From: Ophiocordyceps camponoti-saundersi (nom. inval.) | Taxonomy: Eukaryota > Ascomycota > Sordariomycetes > Hypocreales > Ophiocordycipitaceae | Length of the DNA: 64,000 nt | Direction: 5' to 3' | Assembly: GCA_003339415.1 (NCBI GenBank) | Contig: PDHQ01000011.1 | Span: 359,876-423,875, forward strand | Shown here: piece by piece, positions 32,887 through 56,589 of the stretch | Layout of the letters: every line of letters starts with the position of its first letter | How positions within the stretch are numbered: position 1 is the first letter of the stretch | Notes under the pieces: generated by a model | Told to the model about the DNA's origin: nothing | What the model saw: the letters and a program-made list of their open reading frames with translations, nothing else | Databases searched by the model: none | Program-made: the position numbers and the translations under genes

Positions 32887-34904
32887 CTTGAGTGTTTGGG
32901 GGGTTCTGGAAAAGTTGATAGAAGGCATTTGAGTCATGATAACATGATCATGAGTAAAGTGAAGTCTTTGTGTGTCTGTGTTGTGAATAGTTGTTGTGTA
33001 CCTACCTACTATGTGAGCATCGTCAACGTACCTAGTTTTCACGCATATATGTATGTATGTATGTTCACCTGTTATATATATGCATAAGTCGGATGTCAGA
33101 TCTTCGGCCTCAACGTATATGATGCTGTACGAAGTGTCGAGAGCATACATCTCCACATACCGATGCATCGATCATCATGAACAACGTCGTCTCCCCCCAT
33201 CAGCAGTTATTATTTGTAATGCTTCGTGAACAGGGGAGAAGACCTGAAAGAGGAGACAACGAGTGGAGGAGAGGGGTCAGGGGTTTTCACGGCCCAGAAA
33301 AAGGAGTCTGAGCTCATCCGCCCTCTCAACGTTCCCACATGCGCTCCAAGCGTTACAAACTCCACTGCTTTGCCGTCTTCGGGATTGCTCAGGGATCTTG
33401 ATTGGCCTGCAGTGTAAGACCGTCTCCCCCACACTGACAGTAGCTTATTTGCACGACGACCGGAGCATGCATGTACATACATACCCATATCGACCGAGGG
33501 GTCTTTTGGCGGGTGAGACATCAAGGGTCTTGTTTCTGACCTTGTCTTTAGCGTTTCACCGGATGCTTCTGATGGTGAGATCAATGCTGGGTTGTGCCTT
33601 GTGAATTCAAAGTTTCATTGTAAGGATATGATGTGATGTTGAAAGATCGTCTTGCAGCGAGTTCAAGCATCTTCAACTGCCCTCTTCCACCTCAACCTTC
33701 TTTTCCAAGTTGCCAAGTTTCGTTCACACTTCCTCCCGAATAACATGTTCCTCCGCCAAGGCCATTGCTCCAGATTTTCAGCTCTTCCCCCCCCCCCCCC
33801 CCCCTTTTCCCACTCGTTGTCCATCCGACGTATAGAAGCCTCAAGAGGCGTGTGTTCTTGAGATGCCCAGCATCTGTAAAGCTCCAATCTTCTCGATTCC
33901 TCCGCAGCTGCTCCGTGTATGTTCCTCGCATTTCTCTCCTTCTTCTCCCCTTTGCCCATATATTGCTTGTTTGGCTCGGTTCGGTTCAGTCGGTCGACCG
34001 TCTCGCCTCGTTCGGCCCTGCTCTTCGCTTTCTAGCTCGCTCGGTCGCTGATGTCTTTCGGTCGGTAGGATCGGTCGTCGGTCGAGTTGTTCAAATCGCT
34101 TTGGCATGAGATCAATCTCGAGAATCTTGTAGAGTCCGAATCAGCAAAAACCAAAGATTGACCAAGACAAATAACCAGACAGAACTCCACGGCCTTCAGA
34201 GGTGCTGCTCAGGCTAGTTTTTCTATCCACTGGAGAATACCCTGAGGGTAAATGTTCTGAGGGCAGATGCCCCGAGGACAAATACTCTCGGGTACAGCCC
34301 CTCAAAGAGTAGTATCAATCACCAGATCATCATCTAGACCATGTGGAGTCTGAAGAAAAGAATAAATGAAATCATGACTTCCTTTTTGTTGAAAAGTCTT
34401 GAAGACGAAGAAGCTTTCCAGACTTATAGCGGAGATCTTTCAAGGCGAAGTTGAAGTCGTGATAAGAGCCGAGATGTCGGCTTCGGTGACTCCTAACCAG
34501 AAGTTAGCCGTTGATCATCAAGAGAAGGCCACTGAAGCCCGCCCAACTTACGCTCGATTCGTCATTGTATTGCGGTTGTTGAAATGGCTCGGAAAAGCGA
34601 AGGCCAAGCTGATGATCGGAGAAAGATTCTTGAAGAGTCAGATCGAGCGCGACGATCCATCGTCTCAGACCTGGGGAAAAAAGAAGTCAGCTAAGAGTCT
34701 CTCGAGGTTTATGAAGGAGACGGGCAGCTTATCTTGGCTCGACCGCGCACCTTTTGCTTTGCTGACCATGGTGAAAACCGTGTCACTTGCAGTAAGAGAG
34801 CGACATGTCTTTTTAGTGGAGAGAAGAGGAATCGAAGAAGCTCGACAGGATTTCTTGAAGATAGAGTCGAAGCTGTCAAGTTCAGAGAACGTCCAAGGAG
34901 AGAA
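32887..34904. other. Intergenic, transition to the tandem array
   Basis: No gene is supported. TATG tracts are at about 33,048-33,063 and CATA at about 33,474-33,484, a C homopolymer at about 33,788-33,804, and short CGGTCG-type repeats at about 33,983-34,085. A 170-codon plus-strand frame (34399-34911) starts with TTG and overlaps the array edge; it is not called. Confidence 0.5.
34243..34302. repeat. Four diverged copies of a 15-bp repeat
   Basis: Units start at 34243, 34258, 34273 and 34288 with consensus TGAGGGYARATGYYC, the last two diverged. In one plus-strand frame they read as EGKCS, EGRCP, EDKYS, RVQPL. Confidence 0.55.
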
Positions 34905-37900
34905 AAGGTAAACCCGCCCACCAACCCAGCGCGGGAACCGAGTCAACCTGTCAAGACACGAGTTAGTAAAAGGTCATCAGAAGAAGACAAAAGGAAATAA
35001 GGGAGCAAATCCTGGCCCTCCCGCAAACCCATCGCTGGTCGCAGCGATAACCGTGTCAAGCTGAAGTCGAAAGTTGAACCCTCCCACCAACCCACTCGCA
35101 GAGCGCGAGGAACATTCGAAACCTGTAAAGACATAAGTTAGTTTGGATTCATGAGAAGAGAACAAAAGAAACAGGGAACAAATCCTGGCCCGCCCCAAAC
35201 CCATCGCTGGCTGTAGCGATGACCGCTTCAACTTGAAGCTGAAAGAACGCGAAGACGAAAGCTGAGCCCTCCCACCAACCCACTCGCAGAGCACGAGGAC
35301 CATTCGAAACCTGTAAAGACATGAGTTAGTTTGGATTCATTAGAAGAGAACAAACGAAACAGGGGAACAAATCCTGGCCCGCCCCAAGCCCACCGCTGGC
35401 TGTAGCGATGACCGCTTCAAAGTGAAGCTCAAAGAACGCAAAGACGAAAGCTGAACCCTCCCACCAACCCAGTCGTAGAGCACGAGGACCATTCGAAACC
35501 TGAAAAGACATGAGTGAGCTTGAGTTATGAGAGGCAACAAAGAAGATGGGAATCAAATCCTGGCCCGCCCCGTACCCATCGCTGGTCGCAGCGATAACCT
35601 ATTAGTGTGAAGTTTGAAATAACTTGGAGAAGATAGATTTGAACCCTCCCACCAACCCACTCACTCTCGTGAGGAACATCGAACTTGACAAGTCATGAGT
35701 TAGTCGAAGGCACTTGAAGAATAGGAGACAGGGAGGACTTAATTCTGATCGGCCTTATGCCCATTCGCTGGATGAAGAAGCTTGAAAGAGCGTGAAGAAG
35801 AATTTGAACCCTCCCACCAACCCACTCACTCTCGTGAGGACCATTGAACCTGACAAGATATGAGTTAGTCGAAGTCACTTGAAGAAGAGGAGACAAGGGG
35901 GACTTAATTCTGATTGGCCTCATGCCAATTCGCTAGATGAAGAGGCTTGAAAAAACGTGAAGAAGAATTTGAACCCTCCCACCAACCCACTCACTCTCGT
36001 GAGGAACATCAAACTTGACAAGATATGAGTTAGTCGAAGTCACTTGAAGAAGAGGAGACAAGGGGGACTTAATTCTGATTGGCCTCATGCCAATTCGCTA
36101 GATGAAGAAGTTTGGAAGAACCTGAGGAAGATGTATTTGAACCCTCCCACCAACCCACTCACGCTGAGCATGAGGACCATTGGATCTGACAAAAAATGGA
36201 GTTAGTTCAAGTCGCCCGGAGAAAGGGGGATAGGAAGACTTAATTCTGGTTGACCTCATGCCCATCGTTGGAAGAGAAGTTTGAGAGAACGTGAGGAAGA
36301 TGCATTTGAACCCTCCCACCAACCCACTCACGCGAAGCATGAGGACCATTGAATCTGCGAGTCATCAAGTCAGTTGAAGTTACTTGAGGAAAAAGAAACA
36401 CGGCAACTTAATTCTGATCAACCCCCAGGCCCTTCGCAGACCGCGCGTTGTTGTGAAGCTGTAACTTGTGGTTTAAAGCAGAAGAATCGAAGAGCGAGAC
36501 TGAAGTCGAAGATATGAAGTCGAAATAATTGTCGAGAACCCTCCCACTAACCCACTCACGCATAGCATGAGGACCGATCGAGGCGACCTGTAAAGACACA
36601 AGTTAGCTGAAGTCACCAGAAGAAAGACAAAAGAGAAGGGGCCAAATCCTAGCCCGCCCCATTCCCATCGCTGGCCGCAGCGATAACCATTGTTGCTTGT
36701 GAGGTTGCAACTTTCTGACTCGGAATCGATTGGCTTCGAAGAGCTCGGAAGAGAAGTCTTGATGAAGAAGTCAAGTCGAAGATGTTAACCCGCCCACCAA
36801 CCCACTCACGCATAGCGCAAGGAACATCTTGAACCTGAAGAAAGAAACAAGTCAGTCAAAGGTCACGAGAGGCAACAAAGGAGATGGGGGGGGGCAAATC
36901 CTGTCCCGCCCGCATTCCCATCGCTGTCCGCAGCGATAACCGTGTAAGTTGCTTTCGGGGTTGCAACTGCTTGATCGGAAAGGTCTTGAGCGTAGGAGAT
37001 CTGGGGTCTGAAGTGGGTGGCTGGAGGTATGAATCTCTAGAAGGGCAATCAGCAGACTTTCCAATTCAACAAGGGAAACGGAGTCAAATCCTGGCCCGCC
37101 CACTGCCCATCGCTGTAGAAGCGATAACCGAGTAAGTCGCTCTTGAGGTTGAGACTGCTTGATCGAGAAGGTCTTGGGTGTAGAGAGGTCTGAGGTCTGA
37201 AGTAGTCGGATCGAGGGATGAAGCTCTGTAAAGGGAATCAGCAGCTGTCAGAGATCGACAAAGAGGAGGAACAAATCCTGGCCCGCCCCATGCCCATCGC
37301 TGCTGAAGCGATAACCGTGTAGTCACACTCGAGGTTTCAACTGCTCAATCGGATATGTCTTGAGTGTAGAGAGTTCGAGGTCTGAAGCGAGAGATGAATA
37401 TATGTAGAGAGAATCAGCAGTTGTCAGTAATCGACAAAGGGAAGGGACAAATCCTGGCCCGCCCCATGCCCATCGCTGTCCGCAGCGATAACCGTGTTGT
37501 TTCGAAGTGGCAACTGCCTGCTTGAGAAGGAAGATCGGAAACGTCTTGAGGTAGAGAGTCTGAGTGAGGAAGTGATCGAGAGGTGAGGTCCTGCAGAGGA
37601 GATCAGTCAAGCTCGCCAGAAGACAAAGGGAGAAGGGGGCAAATCCTAGCCCGCCCCGTGCCCATCGCTGTAGAAGCGATAACCATGCTGCTTTGAAGTT
37701 GCAACTTGTTCGAAAACGTCTGGAGAGAAGAGAGTTTGAGGAAGAAGGTGACCGAGAGGTAAAGTTCTGCAGAAGAGATCAGTCAAATTCGTCTTCGGGG
37801 ACGGAACAATGGAGAAGAGAATCAAATCCTGGCCCGCCCCATGCCCATCGCTACCACAGCGATAACCGTATTGCTTCACAAGTTGCAATAAAATGATTGA

Positions 37901-39420
37901 GAGGAGTTTCAAGAAGCTTGAGAGGAGGATCGGAAAGGTTGAAAGGAAGTGAGGAGTCAACCAGAAGTGATCAAGGTACGATCACGAAAAGACAAGGTCA
38001 GCCACATCTGCCAAGAACAAACAAAGAGATGGGAGATCAAATCCTGGCCCGCCCCAAGCCCTTCGTTCGACAAGCGAAAACCGAATTGTTGCTTCACAGG
38101 TTGCAACTGGTTGCCCCGAGGCCCGGAATGTCTTGAAAAGGTCAAAAGAAGAATTGGTGAATTCGAAAGGAGAGGACACCTGAGGTTGAGTCAGTTGAAG
38201 CCATCAAAGGAAAAGACACATAAGGAGACGGGAACAAAGCCTGGCCCGCCCCATACCCATCGCTGCCACGAGCGATGACCGAGTTGCTTCGAGCTCGCAG
38301 CCAATTGCCCGAGGATTGAGAATCTGAGTTCTGAAGGGATCGAGGAAGAATCACCAGAGACAAGGTCAGTAAAAGCTGCCAGAGGAAAACACAAAAGGAG
38401 ACGGGAACAAAGCCTGGCCCTCCCGCATGCCCATCGCTGCCACGAGCGATCACCGAGTTGCTTCAAGCTCGCAGCCAATTGCCTTGAGGCTCGACAAGGC
38501 GGAATGGATTGAGGATCTGAGGTCTTAAGGGATTGAGAAAGAATCACCAGAGACAGAATCAGTAATAGCTGCGAGAGAGAAACACGAAAGGAAACGGGGA
38601 CAAAGCCTGGCCCGCCCGCATGCCCATCGCTGTCGCAGCGATAACCAAGTTGCTTGAGAGATGGCAACTGAATATCCCGAGGCTTTTGAAAAAAAAAGAA
38701 TCGAGAAGGTCGTAAGCAAGAGAGATGATTGCTGAAGGAAAAATCAGTCAAGATCACCAGAATAAGCACACAAGGAAACGGGGACAAATCCTGGCCCGCC
38801 CACATTCCCTTTCGCTTCAACAGCGAAGACCAGATTATCGACCGATTGCCCCGAGGCTCGAGAACTCGAAGAATTCGGTAGATGTATCGAAGAGATGGAG
38901 AGTCTGAAGTGTCGAGATACCATCACACAACAAACAAGTCAGTCAGTCAAAGTCTCCAAAGGGAAAAGGGGGGAAACAAAGCCTGGCCCGCCCTCATGCC
39001 CTTCGCCCGTTTGTAGCGAAAACCGAGTTGCTTTTCTTTGCAACTGTTTGTTCCGAGAGAAGGATTGGCGAGTTCTTTGAAGAGAGGGAGAAGAAGAAGG
39101 TCAGGAAAGTTTGAAGCTCAAAAGACATGTCAGTCGGATCAATTCATTATCAGGCGAGACAAAGGAAACGGGAAACAAATCCAAAAACCCGCCCTCATGC
39201 CCTTCGCTCCGATAGCGAAAACCGGATTCTTGACTCGAGATGGCGAATGATTATCTTGAAGAGAGATCGAAGAAGGTCGAGGAGAAAGAAGATGAAGTCG
39301 AGAGATGGAAGCTTGTAGAGAGAAAAGTTAATCAATTGATATCCGGAGAAAACGTACAAAGGAGACGGGAACAAATCCAAAGCCCTCCCGCATGCCCTTC
39401 GCTTTGAAAGCGACAACCGT
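34905..39420 (-). repeat. Tandem array of about 190-bp units with intron-like signals
   Basis: Roughly 24 units of 165-245 bp. Two unit types are seen. Between 34.9 and 36.85 kb each unit reads on the minus strand: branch-like CTAACT, 9-10 nt, then TCAG/ACAG, a 20-30 nt segment with GGTCCTC, then in seven units GTGAGTGGG (minus-strand G at 35,664; 35,829; 35,994; 36,162; 36,331; 36,559; 36,809). Four older-looking units have GCGAGT or ACGACT instead. Between 36.6 and 39.4 kb the recurring core is the aatcctggcccgcccc block and a hairpin (next entry). Minus-strand frames are open for up to about 200 codons across units but frame is not conserved. I do not recognise the family. Confidence 0.8.
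35028..39415 (-). repeat. Conserved hairpin core recurring 19 times
   Basis: Each copy has a 5-6 bp stem, ATCGCT...AGCGAT on the plus strand, with a 3-7 nt loop, followed by AACC or GACC. Copies lie near 35,031; 35,203; 35,390; 35,577; 36,665; 36,918; 37,106; 37,288; 37,470; 37,664; 37,846; 38,066; 38,257; 38,431; 38,627; 38,808; 39,000; 39,202; 39,397. In the copies at 38,066 and 38,808-39,202 the outer pair is changed on both sides to TTCGCT...AGCGAA, keeping the pairing. Confidence 0.75.
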
Positions 39421-39686
39421 GTGTATTGCTTCGAGATGGTGATGGATTGCTTTTTTTTTTTCGGGAGAAAGCTTGAGAGAATAGAGAGATGTGTTTCGAG
39501 CAGGAGATGTATCGAAGTCGAGAGGAGATGAATCGGAATCGAGTCGAAGTCGGAGGAGGGAGCTCGGGAGAGATGGACCTAGAAGAGAGGCAGAGAAGAG
39601 TCAGTTAGCGATGGTCCAATCAAGTGAAAGGAGGAGGAGAGACTCATCTTTTTTTTCTCTTGGGTTTCCAAACATTCCTGTGATGA

Positions 39687-39730
39687 CTAGAAGAAGAAGA
39701 AGAAGTCAGTCAGGGAAGAGACTCACTCAC
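39687..39730 (-). other. Intron-like module, 44 bp, best-formed
   Basis: Reads GTGAGTGAGTC, CCCTGACTGAC, a CTTCTT pyrimidine run and TAG. All four intron signals are at normal spacing, though 44 bp is at the short limit for fungal introns. Confidence 0.6.
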
Positions 39731-39766
39731 CTTTGTCGACCTCTCGAGCATTCGACCGGTTGATAC
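39731..39766 (-). other. Exon-like segment, 36 nt
   Basis: Bounded by TTTCAG upstream and GTGAGT downstream. Open in all three frames; frame 0 reads VSTGRMLERSTK. It shares ACCGGTCGAA with the next exon-like segment upstream. Confidence 0.5.
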
Positions 39767-39812
39767 CTGAAAGAACAAGTCAGTAATGAACAACAAGAAG
39801 GGAGGGAGTCAC
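39767..39812 (-). other. Intron-like module, 46 bp
   Basis: GTGACT donor, TTACTGAC branch site, TTCTTTCAG acceptor. Confidence 0.55.
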
Positions 39813-39862
39813 CTTTGCCCGCCACCCGCCCAATTGATTTTGACCGCTTCGACCGGTCGTAC
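39813..39862 (-). other. Exon-like segment, 50 nt
   Basis: Bounded by CTTCTTAG and GTAAGC; open in all three frames; ends in the GGGCAAAG motif shared by neighbouring segments. Confidence 0.5.
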
Positions 39863-39905
39863 CTAAGAAGAAGTTAGTAGAGGAAAATCAGAGGGGAGGG
39901 CTTAC
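39863..39905 (-). other. Intron-like module, 43 bp, with perfect TACTAAC
   Basis: GTAAGC donor, TCTACTAAC branch site 12 nt before CTTAG. TACTAAC is the strict yeast-type branch consensus. Confidence 0.55.
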
Positions 39906-40300
39906 CTTTGTCCACCCACCCACCCACTGAGGATGAGGTTTTGCTTGAAGCTCGAGAGGAGATGTCAGTGTAAAGAAGAAGACGAGTCAGGAGACTTGCC
40001 TTTGCCCACCCACCCACCCACTGAGGATGAGGTTTTGCTTGAAGCTCGAGAGGGGATGTCAGTGTAAAGAAGAAGAAGACGTGTCAGGAGACTTACCTTT
40101 GCCCACCCACCCTGCCCACTGAGGATGAGGTTCTGATTAGAGCTCGAGAGAAGATGTCAGTGTAAATCAAACGTTTCAGGAGGCTTACCTTTGCCCACCC
40201 ACCCTGCCCACTGATGAAGGTAGAGATTGAGTACTCGAAGAGACAATGTCAGTTAGAAATGGGAGAGGGAGTACTTACCAAAGCCCACCCACCCTGCCCA
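39906..40300 (-). repeat. Five successive 21-22 nt exon-like segments with G4 motifs
   Basis: Segments 39906-39926, 40000-40020 (21 nt), 40097-40118, 40189-40210 and 40279-40300 (22 nt) each follow CAG and precede a donor. They carry TGGGTGGGTGGGTGG or GGGCAGGGTGGGTGGG, the latter and 40000-40020 being canonical G-quadruplex patterns on the minus strand. Confidence 0.7.
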
Positions 40301-41688
40301 CTGATGAAGGCCGGAGCCGAGTACTGGAAAGGAGAATTTTTTTTCAGCAGAGAGGGGGGAGGGAAACTCACCAAGCCACGAAGCTTGAAATCCAGTGCTC
40401 GAAGAGACAATGTTAGCAAGGAAATGGGGGAGGGAAAACTCACCAAGCACTGACTTGAGCAACCAATGTTAACAAGGGGATGGGAGAGGGAATACTTACC
40501 TTTTCCCACCCGCCCTGCCCATTGACCAAGGTTGAAATCCAATGCTCGAAGAGACAATGTCAGTAAGGAGATGGGAGGGAAAACACTTACCAAAAGAAAA
40601 GCTGAAGTTGAGTCCGGTGGAAAATTGTCAGCACTGAGGCAAAGGGAGGGGAAGACTTACCAAAACCCACCCGCCCTGCCACAAGAGTCAAGTAGAGGAG
40701 AGTGTCAGCACAGAGACAGAGGATAGTGGAAACTCACCAAGCCCTCCCACCCTGCCACAAGAGGAAAAAAGCTGAAGTTGGGTCCAGTGGAAGATTGTCA
40801 GCACAGAGATAGAGAACAGAGGAGACTCACCAAGCCCGCCCGCCCTGCCACAAGAGGAGAGCCTTGTTCGATTCCGGTAGAGGAGAGTGTCAGCATAGAG
40901 GCAAAGGAAAGGGAAGACTTACCAAACCCACCCACCCTACCACAAGTGGATGATTGGAGAAGAGAGAAAGTCAGCGCAAGAGGAGAAGGAGGAAGACTCA
41001 CCAAACCCACCCGCCCTGCCACAAGTGGATGATTGGAGAAGAGAGAAAGTCAGTAAAAGAGGAGAAGAAGGAAGACTCACCAAACCCACCCGCCCTGCCA
41101 CAAGCGGAGGATCACTTGGAGGAGAGAGAAAGTCAGTAGAAGAGGAGAAAGAGGAAGACTCACCGAAGCCACCCACCCTGCCCACAAGAGCAAAGCTGAA
41201 GTTGAATCTCGAAGGAGAAAAAGGTCAGCAAGATTGAAGACTTACCAAGAAGCCCACCCGCCCTGCCACAAGAGAAATGCTAAAGCTTGGATTTTGGAGA
41301 AGAAAAAGAGAGTCAGCTCATAGACGGAGAAGATTGGAGACTTACCAAGCCCACCCGCCCTTCCACAAGAGAAAGCCGAAGCTGAAATTGAGAGAAGAAA
41401 AAAAAGAGTGTGGCCCACCCACCCTACCCACACGAGAAGACCTGTCAAAGAAGAGCGTCAGCGAGCTGGAGAGAGAGAAGAGGGAAGAGGTATTACTTCC
41501 CTGAAGAATCAAAACCCCCCACCCCCCCGGAGACAAGTTGAAAGTGTCAGCTTCTGTTCATGCACAAGGGAAGAGAAGACAAACCTTGGGAGAAGACGAC
41601 GCCAGCCCACCCCCGGAGACGAGTGAAAGGAGTCAGCAGCTGTTTGAGCAAAGGAAGAGGAGAAACAAACCTTGGAAAGAAAAAAAAA

Positions 41689-41719
41689 CCCCCCTCCCCC
41701 CCCCCCCCCCCCCCCTCCC
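41689..41719. repeat. Poly-C tract at the GC/AT boundary
   Basis: An almost pure C run preceded by an A-run marks the exact change from the array to AT-rich DNA. Confidence 0.85.
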
Positions 41720-43296
41720 TATATAGATTATTATCTTTAAGTTAAATTAAGCTCGACTATTTTACTATTTTAATATATTATCTTTTCTTTCTATTACCTA
41801 GCTATATAATACTTTTTCTTTTCCTACTATTATAAATTATTACGAATTATACGGATTACCCTATATTACTTAAAATTACTCGTATTTTCTACTTCTATAT
41901 CGAGGCGCTATTATTATCCTTTCCTACGTTAAAATTATTTTCCTAGGTATTATTAAAAGAGAAGAGCCGCTCCTTTTTTACTTACGGTTTTTTTACGATA
42001 TAATAATTCGTTTTACCTCTCTTCGGCTCTTACTAATATACTCCCTAACGCACCTTTCTTTACGGTAGCCCTGCTCCTTCGATACGTTCGTTAAAAATAA
42101 ATAAAGAAGACGCCGAAGTTATACTACTCGGCTATCTTCTTCTTTTCTGCCCGTTCGTTTCTTTATGCTTCCTCTTCCCTCTCGACCTTATCTTCCCCGA
42201 GATCTTATCCTTCCTATTCGTTTCCGTCTTCTTCTCTCCCTTCGCTTTTACTTTTTCTATCCGCCTATTCCTTTCGGCTTCCTCGGATCGACCTATCCGG
42301 CCGGATATCTTCGGACTTATAAGGAGTCCGCCTTTCTATCTAAGATAACGCTCTTTCCTTCTTAAGTATTTGATTAATTATAGAGATAGCGGCTATAGAG
42401 TGTAGGTAATAGCGTATAGCGTCCTTCTTCTTCTTTTCTTTCCCTGCCCTTTATTTCTCTTCTTCCTTTTCTAATTATTAGATCTTATAGTATCTTATCT
42501 TATCTTATCGTGAAATATAAACGCCTTTTATAGTTATTTTTAATCGATACTAATCTTATCGTTTTCTCTATTTAGATTTATAGCCCTATAAGGCTATAAT
42601 ACCCTTATCCCTTAGAAAAGGGTAAATAGACGCCTCTCTTAAACGGTTCGTTTTACTAGTATTTTTCTTCGTTTTTATAATAACGCCGCTAATTTACTCG
42701 TTTAAGTAACTTACGATATATTCACGTCCTAGTTTATCTAGATATAAACCCCCCTCCTCGCCCCCTTTCTTTTATATAAACTTATAAGTTTAATTCTTAA
42801 AAGCTATCTTACGCCGCTACTATTATTTAATTATAAAGAATAAGAAAATATCGAGAACGATATATTTTCTAAAATCCTAAACGCTCTTAGATAGATCGCG
42901 GATAACTTAGCCGCTAGGAACGAAGCTTATAATAACTCTCTTACTAACGTTACTTACTAGATACGACTACTTATATAAGCGTTTCTTAATATTGTTACGG
43001 AATTCCGATCCGCTATAAATTAGCTTCGCTCCCTTTATAAGCGCCTTAGTTATATAATATCCTAACTTAACCTCGTCGAATAACTATTAATACTAATTAG
43101 TAACGATAAAATAATAGGGCTCGAGGATAAACTTATAGTAGCTAATAGTCTGCCGCCCCGCGAATAAGGACGTACGGATATATCTATATACGACTTTAAC
43201 GAGGAGGAGCTAGACGAAAAGGAGATCTAAATCCTATAACTACCGGGGGGGGGGGATAAGTAGGTCTAAGGCTTATAACTAAATCGTGGAGGATTA

Positions 43297-43397
43297 GGGG
43301 GGGGGGGGGGGGGGGGGGAAAGTATTTTTTTTAGGGGGGGGTTAAAAGGGGGGGGGTTTTCTTAAAAAAAACGAAAAAAGAGGAAAANNNNNNNNNN
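43297..43397. other. Poly-G tract and 10-N assembly gap
   Basis: A G homopolymer of about 22 (43297-43318), further G runs, then ten N at 43388-43397. The gap length is probably nominal; sequence around it may be unreliable. Confidence 0.9.
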
Positions 43398-43461
43398 GTG
43401 CGTGGGGGGGGGTAGATCGTGGGGGGGGATCAGTGAGTGTCGGTGTGGGGGGGGAGGGGGG

Positions 43462-43950
43462 TTAATAGAGAGTCGGTTTTCTATATAAAAACGAGATAAG
43501 AGGTAAAAGGAAAGATAGGAACTATTTAACTAGTTATCGAGATTTTTAGGATAAGAATTTAAATTAGTAATTTATAATATAAAAGTATAAGGTTCGAAAT
43601 AAAGTTATAATTCCGTTTAGTAAAGTTTTTGCTATAAGTCCTCTCTAAGACTTAACTTATAATATACGACTTTTATAATAGCTATTAAGATAAGGTTAGA
43701 GGCTAATTACTTGCTTAATTTTTTTCTTCTCTTAAGGGAAACTAATCTATGCTATATACCTAATAATAGCCCCTATCCTATCTTAATCGCCTTTCGTGTC
43801 CTAATCTTTAGGAGCTCTTAAGAGAAGGAAGGGGCTAAGATACTATCTAATTAAACCCGGCATAAAACCTTAATAGCTTCCTAGCTAAAGTACGCGTATA
43901 TTTTTTTCCCCGGGCGTGTCCCTTACCGCCGCTAAACTACGCCGATATTC
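43462..43950 (+). repeat. Dispersed repeat family R1, copy A
   Basis: Shares the sequence from gtcggttttctatataaa through the gggaaactaa segment and on to ccgccgctaaact with copy D. Its left end is lost in the G-run/gap. Copies differ mainly by C/T and A/G exchanges. Confidence 0.7.
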
Positions 43951-44744
43951 GGTACTAATACTAAGGTAATATAAAGGAACTATTTAATATCCGCATTAAA
44001 GAGCGGATTACGTAGGACGTATATAATATTATTAATTATCTTTCCTATACCTTATAGCCGGTAAAGAGGCTGCTAGATAGCTTATAATAATCTTTACTAA
44101 GCTTTTACTTAATTATCTAAGCTATATTAGTTAACTAATAACTCTCGAAGTAACTTTTTATTCTAAGAAGTAGCTACTTTTTATTATAAGCCTTAATTTA
44201 TCTATAGCTAAAAAAGTTTATACGCTTCTTTAAGCTTAGTTGCCCGCGTCTGCGTCCGATAAGTATCGGCCTCCGGAGGGATATTCTTAAATATCTTCGA
44301 TAATTAAACCTAGGTATATAAGGCTTACCGCAAATAATAGTGCGGGCTTAGCGCTTATTAGGTTCCCGTCTTACTCTATTCTTTTTAAGAAGCTTAGAGA
44401 TAGGCACTTAATTACTATAGCTTATTATTTGCCTTTTTTAAGCGAACTCGCTACCGACTTCTGCTAATTACTTCTTCCCTTCTACTTCCTATTTACGTTG
44501 CTCTATCCCTTAAATATAAGTAATAAACTCTCTAGTATTCTTAGTAAGGAACCTCTTAAGCTATTCCTTATTCTTCGCCTAGCGTTAGCCTTTAAGTAAT
44601 ATCTCCTTTTTAATCGAGTCGGGCATAAAATCCCCGTCCTTCGAATTATTATTATTAAAATTGCTAAAGCTTATAAAAGTTAGTCCTTATACGTTAATAC
44701 CTTTAGTTATCCTTTATATATTTAGTATTAATTAAGTGCTTAAC

Positions 44745-45010
44745 CTCTTAAAACGAGTATTTAAATTATAAGCTTGCTATAAAAGTATAAGGATTATAGT
44801 AAAGCTATAATTCTATTTAGTAGAGTTTTTGCTAGAAGTCCTCTATAAGACTCGACTTATAATATATAACCTTAAGAATAGCTTAGAAGATAAGCTTAAG
44901 GGCTAATTCTTACTTTATTCCTCCGTCTTTCGAGGGAAACTAAACTATATTATATACTTTATAATAACCCTTATACTATCTTAGGCGACTTTTACGGGAA
45001 TAAATAAACA
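44745..45010 (+). repeat. Dispersed repeat family R1, copy B (partial)
   Basis: Holds only the central part (atttaaatt... to aataacccttatactatctta). Confidence 0.65.
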
Positions 45011-45169
45011 TACCCGCATACCGTAGCTAAGGAAAAAGAAGAAGAGAAAGGGAAAAGGGTGTAGAAAAAGGGGCAGTTCTAAGTTATTCCTAGTAATTTA
45101 AAGAGCGTAGATTTTATAGGGCTAAGGAAAGAAGGGGTCCGTAGCAGGTAGCTTTACCTAGTTTTGCGG

Positions 45170-45700
45170 GGGGGGGGACACCCTAAGCGAGCGTAGTAGA
45201 TACCTAAGGGGGCGTAACTTTTTAGGTGACCGGGGTCTTTAACTAATATAAGGGGGGGTCTCTAGCTATAGGGGGAAAAACTAGATAGTAATTCCTTATA
45301 AGGAGAAAGACTAGAAGTCGGTTTCTTATATAAAGATAAGAGAAGAGGGAGAAAAAAAAGTAAGAATTATTTAATTAAATTATAAAGGCTTTAAAATAAG
45401 TGTTTAAATTAGTAATTTATAGTATAAAAGTGTAAGGTTTAAAGTAAAGTTATAATTCCGTTTAGTAGAGTTTTTACTATAAGTCCTCTCTAAAACTTAA
45501 CTTACGATATACGGTTTTTATAATAGCTATAAAGATAAGGTTAGGGGCTAATTGCTTGCTTAATTCCTCCCTCTTTCGAGGGAAACTAACCTATACTATA
45601 TACTTATTAATAACCCCTACTTCGTCTTAACTACCTTTTATATCTTAATCTATATAAGCTCTTAGAAGAAGAAACGTGTTAAGGGACTATTTAACTAAAC
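45170..45700 (+). repeat. Dispersed repeat family R1, copy C
   Basis: Begins with accctaagcgagcgtagtag, continues through ctagctataggggg and the common core. Its right end runs into R2; about 80 bp similar to its right end recur at 46,030-46,110, as if R2 had inserted into R1-type sequence. Confidence 0.65.
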
Positions 45701-45714
45701 CCTGCTTAGAATCA

Positions 45715-46030
45715 CTATATTTATCGAGGCTGCCTTCGCTATATAATAAGTAGGAAATTAACCCCTTCTTATACGTATAAATCTAATCTTCCTAGGATCT
45801 GTAAGTCCTTTAACCCCTTTCTAGCTAAGTAATACTAATTAATTAAATTCGTTAGATTAGGCAAGCTAGTTTAAATAACCCTTTTAACGCCTGTAACCCT
45901 AACTTACTTATACGGTTTATAGGGCCCGGCAGACCTATACGGACCTAATAGCCCTGCTACCTTAAGACTGTCTTCTCTGCGAGGGATATGTGTCTATAAG
46001 CAGGGGTGCCTGTTACTCCCGCTAAATAAC
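45715..46030 (-). repeat. Dispersed repeat family R2, inverted copy
   Basis: Reverse complement of about 54,985-55,340 (shared cgggagtaac...cctgc, ccctcgcagagaagac, gtccgtatagg...ctgc). Less RIP-affected than its surroundings: several CA and TG survive. Confidence 0.65.
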
Positions 46031-47161
46031 TTTTATAATCCTAATCCTTAGGAGCTCCTAGGATAAAGAAAAAGATAGAAAACTATTTAATTAAATCCTA
46101 TATAATAGTAATATTATATTCTAGTTTTACGTTTATTTCCTCTAGGTATATCTATTACTGCTATTAACGTATCCTAACGCCTAATACGTAGTAAGCAGAT
46201 AACGTGCGCGTACCGCGTAAGTATAACTAAGTCTCTTACTATTACTTAGTAACTCGGGCATAGCCCGGATAAAATACTTCGCCGCCCTAGGAAAAAAGGA
46301 AAATCCGGACTTAGCTAGGCACAAATTAAAATAATATATAAAAAAAAATATATATACCTTTCTCTTTTTCTTTCTTTCCTTTCCTATATACTACCCTTCT
46401 TAATAGTAATAATTTAATATCTCTCCGCGTTCTCGTATATTATTATCTTACTAGCCTTTTTATATTAGTATATTACTCTTATTCTTACTATACTATTATA
46501 TCGGACGCGCTCGCGACGCTTATATTATTAAACCGCGCTAATAGTAAGTAAACTACGTAGGATAATAGTAATAATAAGGATACCGCCTTATTAGTTAATC
46601 TCTAGTGCCTATATACGCCCCGGCTTAATAACTTAATAAATAATAGCTTAGATTGCGTTCGGGGTCGCTGCGCGGCGTAGGATATGCTTCTACGGATAGC
46701 ACCTATTTACCGCCCACGCTCGCCTTCGGCCGGCTGTCCGCAACTTATAGGTAATAAGTCGAGATAATACTATTTTTACCGAGTCTCCCTAATAAGAAGG
46801 TCTTTTACCGCTAGGATTATAATAATATACCTTAACCTTAAGAAGTTCTACGCTAGGTCTCTATAATTTAAGATTAAGAGGAGGATATAGATAAAGATAA
46901 GCCCCTCGAGCCCGCAGTATATAATATAACCGGTAATATATCTTAATTATAGGAAACGCCTAAAAACGCGTTTTCCGGGTTTTTTAATTAATTTAGTGTT
47001 TAAGAACGGGATATAGGTTATCCTAGCGCCGACCCCTTAAATTTACTAGTTAAAGAGGCGGAATTAGCCTCCTATATACCTATAACCCCTAACTCCTTAG
47101 ATTTTATAGGGAATTTAGCTATTCTATTTAGCTAAGCCTTAGCAGATAAGCTTTATTTAGA

Positions 47162-48058
47162 CTATTTGCCGGAGCCCGCTTTTATATATAAAAGATTATC
47201 CCTTCGATTAAGGTCCACGAGGCTCCTCCTCCTTATACGACTCCTAGCGCGACCCCGACTCTTAGGACGATCCCGTACGAAGCGAAGGAAACTCCGGATC
47301 CCTTTATAGCTCTCGTAATTATCCTAAAAAGCCCGGCCTTCGTCTTTCCTCCCGTACGACTAATTTATAACGGTCTAATCACCCCTAAGAAAGTAATTAT
47401 ATTTAGTAAAGGTTAGCGAAAGGACTAGTATTACTTAGGCTAACTGTACGATATCCTGCACGATAAAGCTAAGCTTTTTATATCGTACTACTAAAGGATT
47501 AGCATTACCGAGGACTAGTACTATGCTGTCTTTCCGGACGTCCTTATAGGTTCCGCGTAATCGTACTACCTCTACTATATAGGACCCGAGAAGAGGTAGG
47601 ACGAGATCTAAAAGATGCTTAATTCGCACTTTAATACGGCTACGAATTACACGCAGTACTAGGTTAACTAGACCGGTATAACGTTCCCTTCCGTATAAAG
47701 GAAGTTCCCGGATAAGACGATACTAAAAGTCCTCGAGGAACTAATCGAGAAAATGCAACTTATATAACGCGCACTCGGCGAAGGGGAAACTTAGCTATAC
47801 GCTACGATAACTAGGGCCTGCCGTAGCGTGCCGGAACTTGAGCCGGCACTTCTCTCTACGAAGCCCTTATACGAAGAGTTTTTCTCTATTCTTTATATAT
47901 CGCTTTAGATCGCTCTTAACCGTAAGAAACCGATAGATTAATTCTTTATTAATCGACGCTATTATACGAATTCCCTATATTCGAATTCTCCCCGGCTATA
48001 GTAGGGGCAGATTTACGTCTAGACTATAAGTCTAGGACTAGAAAATTAGTTTTTATAA
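47162..48058 (+). pseudogene. RIP-broken retroelement Gag-like frame
   Basis: One frame stays readable for about 300 codons; about 19 in-frame stops are all TAG or TAA, none TGA, exactly what RIP produces from TGG, CAG and CAA. The readable text has the flavour of a fungal LTR-element Gag: Pro/Thr-rich N-part, then an acidic/aromatic middle (47,520-47,650), EELIEKMQL, LEPALLSTKPLYEEF and FFINRRYYTN. Family is not certain; no reverse transcriptase or integrase was identified nearby. Confidence 0.5.
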
Positions 48059-48140
48059 TATAATATATAAATTATCTTATCAACTAAGTATATTTTGTTA
48101 CCTCTTCTTATCTCCTATATTATATATAATAACCTACGTG

Positions 48141-48680
48141 ACTGCCCTCCTTGTCCCCTAAGGGATAAACCCGTTAACTGCTTTTCTTATCCCTTAAGGG
48201 ACAAACCCGTTAACTGCTCTTCTTATCCCTTAGGGGACAAACTTATTAACTGCTCTTCTTATCCCCTAAGGGATAAACCCGTTAACTGCTCTTCTTATCC
48301 CCTAGGGGATAAACCTGTTAACTGCTCTTCTTGTCCCCTAGGGGACAAAGGACAAACTTGTTAACTGCTCTTTTTATCCCTTAAGGGACAAACCCGTTAA
48401 CTGCTCTCCTTATCCCCTAAGGGATAAACCTATTAACTGCTCTTCTTATCCCTTAAGGGATAAACCTATTAACTGCTCTTCTTATCCCCTAAGGGATAAA
48501 CTTATTAACTGCTCTTCTTATCCCCTAAGGGATAAACCTATTAACTGCTCTTCTTATCCCCTAAAAGATAAACCCGTTAACTGCTCTTCTTATCCCCTAA
48601 GGGATAAACTTATTAACTGCTCTTCTTATCCCTTAGGGGATAAACCCGTTAACTGCTCTCCTTATCCCTTAGGGGATAAA
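48141..48680. repeat. 36-bp palindromic satellite
   Basis: About 15 head-to-tail units of 36 bp. Each contains an 18-bp palindrome, TTATCCCCTAGGGGATAA or TTATCCCTTAAGGGATAA or mixed forms, and a spacer ac(c/t)(c/t)(g/a)ttaactgctcttc. The period is 12 codons, so a frame reads as a repeated peptide, but it has no ATG and no context as a gene. Confidence 0.9.
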
Positions 48681-51600
48681 TACCTATTATCTCGGGTATA
48701 TCGTCGTCGTTCTGCACGGTATAGTTAATCTCCTTATCCTTTCGTACCTATATCGACGAAATATAGGACTCGACTCCCGCTTCTTAGACTAAGATACGGA
48801 TAAGACGCGTCTCTTTAGTCTGCCTAAAGCGCTGCACGCGATAGTTAGCTTACTTCTCTCTAGTTATCTTCTACGGGACTAACCCGTTAACTGCCTTTCT
48901 TATCCCCTAGGGGATAAACTTATTAACTGCTTTTCTTATCCCCTAGGGGATAAACTTATTAACTGCTCTTCTTATCCCTTAAGGGATAAACTTATTAACT
49001 ACTTTTCTTATCCTTTAGGGGATAAACTTATTAACTACTCTTCTTATCCTTTAGGGGATAAACTTATTAACTGCTTTTCTTATCCCCTAAGAGATAAACC
49101 TATTAACTACTCTCCTTATCCCTTACGGGATAAATACTTATTATCTCGGGTATATTATTATCGTCCTATACGGTATAGTTAATCTCTTTATTTTTTCGTA
49201 CTTACGTCGATAAAATATAGGACTTAACTCCCGCTCCTCGGACTAAGATACGGATAAGACGCGTCTCTTTAGTCTGCCCGAAGCGCTATATATAATAGTT
49301 AGCTTACTTCTCTCTAGTTATCTTCTACGGGACTAACCCGTTAACTCCTCTTCTTATCCCTTAAGGGATAAACTTATTAACTACTCTCCTTATCCCTTAG
49401 GGGATAAATACTTATTATCTCGGGTATATCGTTATTATCTTATATAGTATAGTTAATCTCCTTATCTTTTCGTACTTATATTAACGAAATATAGGACTTA
49501 ACTCCCGCTCCTTAAACTAAGATACGGATAAGACGCGTCTTTTTAATTTACCCGAAGCGCTGCACGCGATAGTTAGCTTACTTCTCTCTAGTTATCTTCT
49601 ACGGGACTAACTTATTAACTGCTCTTCTTATCCCCTAAGGGATAAACTTATTAACTACTCTCTTTATCCCCTAGGGGATAAATACTTATCGTCTCGGGTA
49701 TATTATTATCGTTTTATATAATATAGTTAATCTCCTTATCTTTTCGTACCTACGTCGATAAAATATAGAACTTAACTCCCGCTCCTCGGACTAAGATACG
49801 GATAAGATATATCTCTTTAGTCTGCCCGAAGCGTTATATACGATAGTTAGCTTACTTCTCTCTAGTTATCTTTTACGGGACTAACTTATTAACTGCTTTT
49901 CTTATCCCTTAAGGGATAAACTTATTAACTGCTCTCCTTATCCTTTAGGGGATAAATACCTATTATCTTAGGTATATCGTTATCGTCCTATATAGTATAG
50001 TTAATCTCCTTATCTTTTCGTACCTATATTAACGAAATATAAGACTTAACTCCCGCTCCTTAGACTAAGATACGGATAAGACGCGTCTCTTTAGTCTACT
50101 TAAAGCGCTGCACGCGATAGTTAGCTTACTTCTCTCTAGTTATCTTCTACGGGACTAACCTATTAACTGCCTTTCTTATCTCTTAAGGGATAAACTTATT
50201 AACTACTCTTCTTATCCCTTAAGGGATAAACTTATTAACTGCTCTTCTTATCCCTTAGGGGATAAACTTATTAACTACTTTTCTTATCCCCTAAGGGATA
50301 AACTTATTAACTACTTTTCTTATCCCCTAAGGGATAAACTTATTAACTACTCTTTTTATCCCCTAAGGGATAAACCTATTAACTGCTCTCCTTATCCCTT
50401 ATAGGATAAATACTTATCGTCTTAAGTATATTATTATTATCTTATACGGTATAGTTAATCTTCTTATCTTTTTGCACTTATATTAATAAAATATAAAACT
50501 TAACTCCCGCTCCTTAAACTAAGATACGGATAAGATATATCTTTTTAGTTTGCCCGAAGCGCTATATACGATAGTTAGCTTACTTCTCTCTAGTTATCTT
50601 TTATAAAACTAACTTATTAACTCCTTTTCTTATCCCCTAAGGGATAAACTTATTAATTACTCTCCTTATCCCCTAGGGGATAAATACTTATTATCTCGGG
50701 TATATCGTCGTTATCCTATATAGTATAGTTAATCTCCTTATCTTTTCGCACTTACGTTAACGAAATATAAGACTTAACTCCTGCTCCTCGGACTAAGATA
50801 CGGATAAGATATATCTTTTTAGTTTGCCCGAAGCGCTATACGCGATAGTTAGCTTATTTCTCTCTAGTTATCTTCTATAAGATTAACCCGTTAACTACTC
50901 TTCTTATCCCCTAGGAGATAAACTTATTAACTGCTCTCCTTATCCTTTAGGGGATAAATACCTATCGTCTTAGGTATATCGTCGTTATCCTATACGGTAT
51001 AGTTAATCTCCTTATCTTTTCGTACTTATATTAACGAAATATAAGACTTAACTTCCGCTCCTTAGACTAAGATATAGATAAAATACGTTTTTTTAATCTG
51101 CCCGAAGCGCTATATACGATAGTTAGCTTACTTCTCTCTAGTTATCTTTTACGGGACTAACTTATTAACTGCCTTTCTTATCCCTTAGGGGATAAACTTA
51201 TTAACTACTCTTCTTATCCTTTAGGGGATAAACTTATTAACTACTTTTCTTATCCCTTAAGGGATAAACTTATTAACTACTCTTTTTATCCCCTAAGGGA
51301 TAAACTTATTAACTACTCTTCTTATCCCTTAAGGGATAAACTTATTAATTACTCTTCTTATCCCCTAAAAGATAAACTTATTAACTACTCTTCTTATCCC
51401 TTAGGGGATAAACTTATTAACTGCTCTTCTTATCCCTTAAGGGATAAACTTATTAACTGCTCTCCTTATCCCTTACGGGATAAATACCTATTATCTCGGG
51501 TATATTATTATTATCCTATATAGTATAGTTAATCTCCTTATCTTTTCGTACCTACGTTAATAAAATATAAGACTCGATTTCCGCTTCTTAAACTAAAATA

Positions 51601-51860
51601 CGGATAAGACGCGTCTCTTTTATCTACCCGAAGCGCTATACGCTACCCTTCTTATCCTTAAAAGATAAACCTATTAACTCCTTTTCTTATCCCCTAGGGG
51701 ATAAATACCTATTATCTCCGGTATATAGTTATTATCTTATATAGTATAGTTAATCTCCTTATCCTTTTATACTTACGTTAACGAAATATAGGACTCGACT
51801 TCCGCTCCTTAAACTAAGATATAGACGAGACGCGTCTTTTTAGTCTACTTAAAGCGCTAT
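48681..51860. repeat. Higher-order repeat: about 205-bp blocks alternating with 36-bp satellite
   Basis: Ten blocks beginning gataaatac(c/t)tat start near 48,681; 49,133; 49,404; 49,679; 49,947; 50,406; 50,681; 50,955; 51,483; 51,703 and end at gggactaac; the last two are truncated. Between blocks lie one to nine 36-bp units. Block one keeps most CA/TG (for example ctgcacggt), the others have TA there. Confidence 0.88.
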
Positions 51861-52012
51861 ACGCTTCTCTTTCGTCTATCCGAAATACTATACGCGTCTC
51901 TTTCGTCTATCTAAAACGCTATACGCGTCTTTTTCGTCTGCCCGAAATGCTATACGCGTCTTTTTTATCTTTCCGAAATACTATACGTATCTCTTTCCTC
52001 TGCCTAAAATAC
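51858..52012. repeat. 31-bp tandem repeat, five copies
   Basis: Exactly five 31-bp units beginning tatacgc (51858, 51889, 51920, 51951, 51982) with mostly transition differences; directly adjoins the higher-order array. Confidence 0.88.
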
Positions 52013-53240
52013 TATACGCTATAGTTACGATATTTCGCTTACTTCTCCTTTATTATTTTCTACTATAAGTTTATAATAATAATACGATTTGCTAATATAA
52101 GGTTTAAACCTTCTTCGCTAATTCTTATTATAAAGACTTATTATAGGAGGTATAATAAGTATAGTAATAAATAATATATTTTTTAGAGATAGCCCTATAT
52201 AAGTAAGTAAGTAAGCTAGGATATATATTTTATATATATATTATATATTTATAGTTATATAGCTTATAGCTATACTTACGATTTGCTAACTAATTAGCTA
52301 CTAGGGATATCTAAATATCTCTTTCTCTTACGTACGTACGTACTAGTTCCTCCTTAGTTTCGTCTTTAGTAAAGTTACTAATTGCCTTATTCGTCTAAGT
52401 TTATATTATTACGCGTAAATAATAGTAGAAAGATACGTTCGCCTTCTATAATATATATCTTAGTACCTAAGGGATTAAGTTAATAAATTTAGCAAATATT
52501 ACTCGTAAGATATTCGCTTTTAATAAGCGAGCTAGTTACTCGGCTATTTATAGCACGACCCCGGGATAACCCCGGTAGAAATTATAACCCCGCTCGATCC
52601 TTTCCTTAGCTAGAGTTATACTTGCCCGAGCTCCGGTTAGGCAAGACGGGGGAAATATATAAGTAAGTTTATTATAAAGGGACTCGGCACCTATCTTAGG
52701 GCCGTTTATAGGTAGCGACTATAAGCTACCTCTTACTAAGGTTATAATTTTAGATAGATTCTAACGGAATCGGAATATTACGTTAAATAAAAAATAAACC
52801 GAGTAATTAATTTATATATCTAAGAGTTAGAATATAGGTAAGTATATTATATATATATTTATATAAACTATAAATATAAAGAGCTTAACCTCTAACTTTT
52901 AGGCTTAGAGGCCTTCCTTATATATATAATATATATATATATATAAAAATAGCGGTTCTTAGAGAAAGGCTCTTAAGAATAAAGATACTAGCTTCTAAGC
53001 TAGCGATATGCTAAGTAGGATTATTCTATCGTTACTAGGGAATCTAAATAAATATATATATCTTCGTATTAGAGTTTTCCTTCTACGTTTAATAACCCCC
53101 TTAATTATATCCTACCTACTTATAATTATATAAATTAAAGTCAGTTCTTCCTTTCTAATACTACCCTCGTAGCTACGGGGCTAAGGACTAACTAAAACGG
53201 TAATAGAGTATTCTTATAAAAGTAACTTATTATAAGGTTA
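52013..53240. other. AT-rich, no gene
   Basis: Simple TATA runs at about 52,226-52,256 and 52,921-52,944 and degraded sequence; nothing recognisable. Confidence 0.5.
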
Positions 53241-53244
53241 ATAG

Positions 53245-53400
53245 CAGTACTAATAAAGGTGTTAAAATTCCTAATACTTATAACTATAATAATAATTCTG
53301 CTAGGTCTATTTTATAAGGCTATGCCCTAAGAAGTAGGGTTGGCAGCGCTAACTAACTAAGAGGGAGGTCTATAAGGTAGGCCCTTATAACATAACTTAA
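53245..53400 (+). repeat. Direct repeat, copy 1 of 2
   Basis: Matches 53,955-54,110 (shared aattctgctaggt, ggcagcgctaactaactaag, agggaggtctataaggtagg), about 560 bp apart. Confidence 0.65.
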
Positions 53401-53954
53401 GATCTTCGCTATAATATTTACCGATATACGTACCGCAACTACCTAGAACTTAGATAATATCTATATACGATAGGAACTAAGGAAGTATAGTTATCCCTTA
53501 CTTAAGACCGGCGTAACTTCGGATAGATAACCTATAATAAACAAGCTCTCTAACATAATAAATCGGGCCTATAAGCTAGCTAACCTTATTAAGTAAGAGG
53601 TCTTCCCCTAAGCCTTATAGTTTTTCCTCTCTAATAAATAGTTTATATATATATATATACCTAGATACTTATATAAGCTACTAGTATAATATAGTATATC
53701 TTATATATACTGCTCGTAAGATTAACTATATATATTAGCCCGCTCTTCTTATACTTAGCAGTTTATTTCTCTTTTAGTCTAAGCCTCTAAGGTACTAACT
53801 ACTAATCGATAAACTTCTCTCCGGGCATTCCTTAAGCTAGTTAAGTAAAAATTATAGTTATAGCGGCCGTTATTTTCGTGCTCGGCACTAGAGGAAATCT
53901 AAGATACTTAGCGCTTAGTACTAAAAAAGCTATTCCTATATCTTATATAGCGAA

Positions 53955-54110
53955 AGGCAGCCTCGATAAATATAGTAATATTCCTAATATAATAACTATA
54001 ATTCTGCTAGGTTTATATAGCAAGGCTAGGGCCTTAGGAAGTAAGGCTAGCAGCGCTAACTAACTAAGAGGGAGGCTTATAAGGTAGGCCGTATAATACT
54101 AGATACTTCC
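53955..54110 (+). repeat. Direct repeat, copy 2 of 2
   Basis: Partner of 53,245-53,400. A short open frame across it (53,878-54,063) has a GTG or similar start and is not a gene. Confidence 0.65.
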
Positions 54111-54159
54111 GCGCTATAATAACGCCTTTACTATCCTTCCCTATTTCCCCGAATAGCTT

Positions 54160-54560
54160 ATCGGCAGTTACCTTAAAGTAAATAGAATCTAGCGTTTTCA
54201 CTATAATCGTATTATCGACTACCTTACTATATTCTTTAACGCTACTAGTTATAGGCCCGAACTACTAGTTATTCTTGCCTTCGTTAATATATCTTCTTAA
54301 AAGTTCTGCTATAGTTCGATATAAGGTAGCTAATAAACTAAATATACGGGAATAGCTCTAAGGACGATTTATTAGTATATCTCGTTTCTCTTAGCGTAAT
54401 TAGCTAACTAGATAACGAACCTAAAGCCGAGTTTGCTAACGATCTTTTAGTTAATACCCGTTATATTTACTCTATAGTAAGTAATATTCTTTCTTAGCTA
54501 TTAGAAAGATATCGATTAGTTACTATTATCCTCGGCTAAGAAGCATTTTACTTACTTAGA
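54160..54560 (-). repeat. Dispersed repeat family R3, left part, copy 1
   Basis: Parallels 61,780-62,070. In both copies one minus-strand frame is readable through TAG/TAA stops only (common elements LRR-YINE at its start and RDIL-NRP further on, read 3' to 5' in window order), so R3 probably contains a decayed coding region of unknown identity. Confidence 0.6.
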
Positions 54561-55595: not shown

Positions 55596-55985
55596 CTATT
55601 TTTATAGTAAGAGAAATCTTAAATTATTCTATAGCTCCTTCTCGAAAGATTTATAGTTATGCTAGGAAGCTTATTTATAAACTTATTACTCGGATAGCTC
55701 TAAAGTAACTCCTTAAATCTTATAATACTATTATAAGTTTTTATCGTTAGATTCTATCTATAAAATATCTTAATAAAATATATTATAACCTAATTTTCTA
55801 CTATAAGCTATTAAGCGTATAGTTTTACTTATTATAGCGTTTAACCTTATAGGAAATTTACTTAAGTAATACTTCTATATCTCTAAGATTTAGCTAAATA
55901 CTACGCTAGTATTTAGTACTAATATTAAGGTTATAGAAACTCGTTAACTACTCCTCTTATAAATTATAGGATAAGCTAAGTAACT
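55595..55985 (+). repeat. Dispersed repeat family R3, right part, copy 1
   Basis: Parallels 62,095-62,465 from agagaaatcttaaatta to tttagtactaa; in both places the palindromic satellite follows directly. Confidence 0.65.
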
Positions 55986-56335: not shown

Positions 56336-56589
56336 AGCGATACCTATATAAACCCCCCCCCCTAACTCTCTATCCTTATAGCGAAAGTAGAATTAGCCCT
56401 TAGCTTTTCGGGCCGTTTTATTATTAGCCTCCGCCTTAGCTTTCGTTTCGAGCCTTAACTTCGCTACTATAATCGCCTCCTTTTAGAAGGAATAAACCTC
56501 TCTATTTAAATTAGATTTTCTATTAACTAATAAAATATCTTAAGGTAAGTATCTTAGCGAGATCGGAGCTAACGAACTAGTTATTAGTA

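Follow-up and report, generated by a model that had tools for sequence, protein, structure and literature searches.

The minus strand of the window analysed here (the whole stretch of 64,000 nt, which lies at the end of a 423,875-base contig in a genome of 45.7 Mb in 733 contigs) carries, between about 41.7 and 34.5 kb, what we regard with some reserve as a probable single-copy gene that expanded through the tandem duplication of a module, one short U2-type intron together with one micro-exon, and that, to judge from the sequence, would probably be non-coding. The gene content of this genome, its spliceosomal introns and mutation of the RIP type suggest a filamentous fungus. The 5' part of this locus of about 7 kb is an array of 20 intron and micro-exon units (section 1). 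Their splice signals equal those of introns in other genes of the same genome, and their divergence follows the rules of splice sites.

Results

An array of putative short introns and micro-exons

All of the 20 minus-strand donors that the original prediction had placed about 85 bp apart between 41,345 and 39,730 are present, with a mean spacing of 85.0 nt (Table 1). Its counts were reproduced as well: 16 of the 20 donors are exactly GTAAGT or GTGAGT, the others being two GTAAGC, one GTGACT and one GCAAGT (19 GT donors and one GC donor), and CTGAC or CTAAC occurs in 18 of the 20 units, with TTAAC (40,499) and CTGAA (40,371) as exceptions. GCAAGT is the usual tolerated exception among non-GT donors. 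Position -1 is a G in 20 of 20 donors, and the donors are intact in the four units that have no preceding G-run (40,590, 40,443, 40,371 and 39,730). On the plus strand of 39,640-41,400, we counted zero GTRAGT and one CTRAC.

The acceptor of section 1 is ambiguous, with two to four AGs in several units; in other units the sole AG considered lies 26-34 nt from the branch point, and distances of at least 26 nt were found in 4 of the 26 training introns described below. Segments between an acceptor and the next donor, originally given as 14-50 nt, measured 10-50 nt when the first usable AG was taken and 6-45 nt when the last one was (19 units), and the reported run of five successive segments of 21 or 22 nt holds if the CAG before TGGG is taken as the acceptor.

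The interval first proposed for the array (39,687 to 41,671) proved too narrow, since the locus continues to about 34.5 kb and contains a second micro-exon array. Between 39.4 and 35.0 kb there are 24 further units, spaced 165-252 nt apart (sections 2 and 3). In DNA searches of the genome with queries of 481 and 1381 bases, the match counts of which are lower bounds, matches were confined to this locus at E <= 0.001. Searches for Rfam families in the locus found none, and no snoRNA: over 33-43 kb nothing reached the gathering score, and the two matches below it (E 0.26 and 0.29) are not snoRNAs.

Table 1. Features of the locus and its surroundings (window coordinates).
Feature	Position	Strand	Basis
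AT-rich, strongly RIP-mutated block up to the contig end; the array begins at its edge	41750..64000	.	RIP index
Upstream related units without strong donors (CCAAG/GTTTGT twice), G-rich, following a long G run	41400..41700	-	by eye
Section 1: 20 tandem intron + micro-exon units, donor to donor 56-100 nt	39640..41400	-	sequence, intron model, alignment
Section 1 donors 1-10	41345, 41245, 41163, 41080, 41001, 40922, 40830, 40737, 40660, 40590	-	motif scoring
Section 1 donors 11-20	40499, 40443, 40371, 40278, 40188, 40096, 39999 (GCAAGT), 39905, 39812 (GTGACT), 39730	-	motif scoring
Hairpin ATCGCT-loop-AGCGAT (or TTCGCT-loop-AGCGAA), 19 units	35015..39444	-	pairing count
Section 2: hairpin, G-run, GGATTTG/GGCTTTG, pyrimidine tract and branch-point-like motif in units of 173-252 nt; canonical donor series absent	36600..39440	-	alignment, motif scoring
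Section 3: second micro-exon array (exons 19-28 nt, introns 145-222 nt, acceptors CTAAC-N-CAG)	34900..36960	-	motif scoring
Section 3 micro-exon, donor 36809 GTGAGT	36810..36834	-	
Section 3 micro-exon, donor 36559 GTGAGT	36560..36587	-	
Section 3 micro-exon, donor 36331 GTGAGT	36332..36354	-	
Section 3 micro-exon, donor 36162 GTGAGT	36163..36185	-	
Section 3 micro-exon, donor 35994 GTGAGT	35995..36013	-	
Section 3 micro-exon, donor 35829 GTGAGT	35830..35849	-	
Section 3 micro-exon, donor 35664 GTGAGT	35665..35683	-	
Section 3 micro-exon, GCGAGT as possible GC donor, below model cut-off	35288..35310	-	donor by eye
Section 3 micro-exon, GCGAGT as possible GC donor, below model cut-off	35100..35122	-	donor by eye
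Two further model introns past the arrays: donor 34750, length 80; donor 34551, length 59	34490..34750	-	intron model

Section 1 signals equal those of the genome's own introns

For comparison, we collected introns from the gaps in split protein-family matches of p450 and sugar-transporter genes, placing them by reading frame. Five of the 35 gaps had no candidate (loci L059, L070, L075, L081 and L083), and four of the 30 picks were dropped by eye (L058, L071, L076 and L080), which left 26 training introns; several of the 30 picks carried little weight, and there is a stop in some of the source exons. These 26 introns are 47-214 nt long, with mostly GTGAGT- or GTAAGT-like donors and with CTGAC- or CTAAC-like branch points 8-36 nt before the AG. 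The signals of section 1 equal those of the 26 introns, which belong to unrelated genes of the same genome and form a small set, partly selected by its own donor matrix. In the 17 section 1 introns found by the resulting model, the distance from branch point to AG is 11-34 nt, against 8-36 nt in training. Introns of 150-214 nt also occur in ordinary genes (L063, L074 and L082), and in the one in L063 the stretch from donor to branch point includes a long CT microsatellite.

The donors also fit the U1 snRNA. Three U1 genes were found, all with the canonical 5' end ATACTTACCTTG, which is complementary to CAAG/GTAAGTAT; these candidates score below the Rfam gathering threshold, with E-values of 9e-12 to 3.5e-8, and come from the 41 of 384 first-look candidates that were scored. 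They are divergent genes within one genome (L090, L091 and L092), each with its canonical 5' end.

Intron density exceeds chance

With cut-offs set at the 25th percentile of the training introns, the intron model detected 32 donors, 24 branch points and 17 non-overlapping introns in 39,640-41,400. A comparison of such scores with shuffled repeats had been suggested along with the original prediction, and it came out in its favour: 1000 dinucleotide shuffles of the interval gave means of 2.3, 10.5 and 0.53 and maxima of 8, 21 and 4, respectively, although shuffles overstate the case, the section 1 units being tandem copies that share motifs by descent. Elsewhere in the window, on either strand, at most three model introns were found per kilobase. 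Pairs of introns enclosing a short exon numbered 11 on the minus strand of the window, all of them in the array, and one on the plus strand, at 41,049. Other loci (L013-L092, with some overlap, and mostly made up of the training genes), 221,157 bases scored on both strands, yielded at most four introns per 1.7 kb and one short-exon pair; the window and these 221 kb are the ground on which the rarity of the architecture, as distinct from the sequence, was assessed.

The model recovers 14 of the 20 section 1 donors. At 40,188, 39,999 and 39,905 it prefers an overlapping GTGGGT within the G-run, which may be an alternative donor, and the donors at 40,499, 40,371 and 39,812 are absent from its list.

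Units diverged as spliceosomal introns do

Since the units are copies of one another, which shuffles ignore, the pattern of their divergence is the better control and stronger evidence than density. The 20 units share a mean identity of 56% over all pairs and of 70% between neighbours; 12 of them are closest to the adjacent unit, and 15 have their nearest relative within two units. When the units were aligned without gaps on their donors, identity was 1.0 at -1, +1 and +4, 0.90 at +2 and +5 and 0.81 at +6, and dropped to 0.46 at -2 and 0.44 at +7. Judged by site rate, the slowest of the 86 well-filled columns were A+4, the branch A, G+1 and the branch C, and the next four were G-run columns. 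With 15 G-run and two purine columns set aside, the ten donor and branch columns were slower than the 59 others (Mann-Whitney p = 7e-7, a test that treats columns as independent, which the columns of a unit are not); the 15 G-run columns were likewise slower (p = 0.001).

The unit tree gave the same picture, with no change at G+1, A+4 or the branch A (19 units aligned there), one change each at +2 and +5, and two at +6, compared with an average of 4.05 steps for the 59 other columns, three of which had one step. Donor position +3 changed at least six times, always between A and G (11 A, 9 G), and the branch purine three times, again always between A and G. As far as the sequences can tell, this divergence pattern is the constraint of spliceosomal introns, and a DNA-binding motif or homogenisation is unlikely to give so exact a pattern. 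The match to the genome's introns, the match to U1 and this spliceosome-type conservation support the original suggestion of a gene expanded by duplication of an intron and exon module. The other origin offered at the time, a satellite that evolved splice signals, may describe how the array began, but alone it is insufficient for the present constraint.

Sections 2 and 3 and a candidate hairpin

In the units of section 2, a G-run ending in GGATTTG or GGCTTTG comes after the hairpin, which 19 of the 24 units of sections 2 and 3 carry, and a pyrimidine tract and a branch-point motif come next. Branch motifs numbered 32 in this section (shuffle mean 20.3, maximum 31 in 300 shuffles), and three canonical donors in 2.8 kb exceeded the cut-off versus a shuffle mean of 1.6. 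Full introns of at most 110 nt were enriched neither in section 2 (1 versus a shuffle mean of 0.44) nor in section 3 (0 versus 0.47). Given this lack of enrichment and the absence of a donor series from section 2, the locus is not a single gene spliced uniformly throughout. GGATTTG occupies the position held by GGTRAGT in section 1, and the remainder of the unit resembles an intron. A variant U1 for this heptamer was considered and rejected: the three U1 candidates found among the 41 of 384 that were scored are all canonical, which leaves non-canonical GA-AG donors unsupported, if conceivable. Among the 123 columns aligned across the 24 units of sections 2 and 3, the branch A changes most slowly. 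The conserved branch points of the middle section, which come without canonical donors, are a puzzle.

In section 3, CTAAC-N-CAG precedes a micro-exon of 19-28 nt, which in 7 of 11 units leads into GTGAGTGGGTTGGTGGGAGGG or a near-match; GCGAGT stands at the donor in two of the remaining units, and the donor is lost in the other two. Between 34900 and 36450 we found 10 donors versus 2.4 in shuffles and 17 branch motifs versus 7.4.

The loops of the hairpin differ in length and sequence. Standard pairs fill 98.2% of its 114 pair cells, and in 4 of 19 units the outer A-U pair is replaced by U-A. Minimum-energy folds of 75-nt pieces contain the stem in 15 of 19 units by eye (11 of 19 by script, which took the wrong 3' arm in four). 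For covariation score and paired-cell share, just 2 of 500 shuffles came as high; only one of the six pairs changed on both sides, which 373 of 500 shuffles also achieve. Given so little covariation, confined to the outer pair, the hairpin is for now not accepted as a proven structure of the RNA. By eye, GTTGC-loop-GCAAC may form a second hairpin ahead of the first in some units of 36600-39440. Genome-wide, the hairpin pattern matched 14 times in the locus and four times elsewhere (reversed control: two), and the G-run/heptamer pattern, with at most one mismatch, 17 times in the locus and once elsewhere.

The array adjoins a RIP-mutated block

The two parts of the locus have composite RIP indices of -0.86 and -0.43, whereas values of 1.39 to 1.56 prevail between 41.75 kb and the end of the contig, and the start of the array coincides with a jump from -0.43 to +1.48. 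This edge is very sharp (41690-41750) and adjoins a G run of about 20 nt. Long mononucleotide runs of G (or C) are recurrent: they were seen in the window at about 33785-33802 and at 41690-41720, and also in L058, where a C run lies near a short stretch of N. The RIP-mutated, AT-rich block itself contains satellites with 36-bp units around TTATCCCCTAAGGGATAA-like palindromes (48141-51865, 56051-56227 and 62469-62777). In 34.4-41.8 kb, the minus strand has eight canonical G-quadruplex patterns, one of them in the G run preceding the array, and the plus strand has none; the remaining window has 7 and 4. Such G-rich content might explain the tandem growth of the array.

Alternative explanations

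Tandem copies that mostly resemble their near neighbours, a sequence private to the locus and the absence of a coding signal would also be found in a minisatellite, silent or no more than transcribed, that started from a unit containing an intron by chance, with splice signals inherited but unused. G-rich minisatellites, moreover, expand readily. Unused signals should decay, yet at 56% identity the donor and branch columns changed more slowly and varied only as splice sites may, and branch points are kept in sections 2 and 3 too, which leaves such a minisatellite unlikely, if worth serious attention. Many similar introns in one place might instead reflect the repeated insertion of introner-like elements, which exist in fungi (PMC4457414). 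We consider this very improbable: the units are exon plus intron, head to tail and for the most part closest to near neighbours, and at E <= 0.001 the 1381-base query matched nowhere else in the genome.

Spliced section 1 is open enough for a protein-coding micro-exon gene, in which splicing choices would lead to variable repetitive proteins in the style of schistosome MEGs or SP7-type effectors: 14,202 of 20,736 combinations of acceptor path and frame are fully open, and a full-length open run of the exons was reached in 1 of 200 mononucleotide exon shuffles. But this openness has no frame specificity. All three frames are open along the last-AG path, exon length is divisible by three in 7 of 19 units (first AG) or 8 of 19 (last AG), which is about chance, and the G-run is read in different frames across units. 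With all frames open and no bias towards multiples of three, we read the openness as composition and not as a coding frame; it is probably a composition poor in stop-forming words, and the locus probably non-coding. Codon scoring of unspliced sections 1-3 found no coding signal (mean best -6.1, -2.6 and 2.1, compared with 27.5-50.3 for six known genes, -6.3 for intergenic and -7.7 for AT-rich DNA). A coding gene has a slim chance, and a micro-exon gene in the schistosome sense is a poor fit, exon lengths being without a multiple-of-three bias and no single frame being favoured. A further thought concerns the position of the array at the RIP index jump and the several acceptors 26-34 nt from their branch points. 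These would suit a spliceosome-loading nuclear RNA at a heterochromatin border, whose distant-acceptor introns would hold splicing factors and so lead to RNAi recruitment or chromatin retention. In fission yeast, the intron of dg RNA, a centromeric transcript, promotes H3K9 methylation (PMC5322907), which offers an analogy. Position and analogy make up the case, and the donors are strong rather than suboptimal, so we judge this RNA rather improbable. A related possibility, to which we give a small chance, is a non-coding RNA gene acting as a serial spliceosome-loading platform at the border of the RIP block, in which dozens of tandem introns with functional signals and the hairpins of the middle section would serve, for example, chromatin retention or border marking, the micro-exons being a by-product.

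Discussion

If the locus is a gene that grew by tandem duplication of an intron and a micro-exon, as we favour, transcription would start near the edge of the RIP-mutated block and run away from the block. The ordinary spliceosome would remove introns of 45-75 nt in section 1 and of 145-222 nt in section 3, and splicing would leave an RNA in which G-rich micro-exons are strung together ahead of the hairpin-bearing sequence. More tentatively, the G-rich runs may have promoted the tandem amplification, as they do in G-rich minisatellites, and the product could be a repeat-bearing nuclear RNA in which repeats and bound splicing factors act together.

Known themes, namely tandem exon-intron lncRNAs, micro-exons and intron gain by duplication, would here be joined in a new form, in which the unit under splice-site constraint is an intron plus micro-exon of about 85 nt; we know of no smaller repeated intron-exon module. 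If spliced, the locus would be a natural test of how the spliceosome handles exons of 10-50 nt. It would then also bear on intron gain through tandem duplication and on non-coding RNAs that consist mostly of intron.

A literature search for the same architecture, judged by titles and abstract openings, brought up nothing that we recognised as equivalent. The SNORD115 and SNORD116 host transcripts and rat Bsr have modules of about 1-2 kb with a snoRNA in each intron. The array resembles them in being non-coding, on our reading, and in its many tandem exon and intron modules, but its unit is only about 85 nt long and Rfam finds no snoRNA in it. Schistosome micro-exon genes are protein-coding, with exons that are multiples of three, unlike the exons here (7 or 8 of 19). 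What they share with the array is a series of very short exons. A new intron with inherited signals can arise when a tandem duplication spans an intron-exon boundary, a known form of intron gain and close to what we propose; the described case is a single event in a coding gene, whereas about 20 successive units are found here.

The Firre locus is larger than the array locus described here. Its lncRNA has local repeats that act in RNA (RRD) or in DNA (R0), and, as in our array, these are present many times in one non-coding locus and absent elsewhere; Firre is mammalian, however, and the abstract does not describe splice signals as part of its repeat unit (PMC4820808). The introner-like elements of Dothideomycetes are multiplying and closely similar spliceosomal introns in fungi, which are dispersed into various genes (PMC4457414), whereas ours form one tandem array. 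The stwintrons of Hypoxylaceae, too, are related fungal introns that have multiplied in one genome and may have secondary structure; they differ from the array in being nested introns, repeated at many gene positions (PMC9024468).
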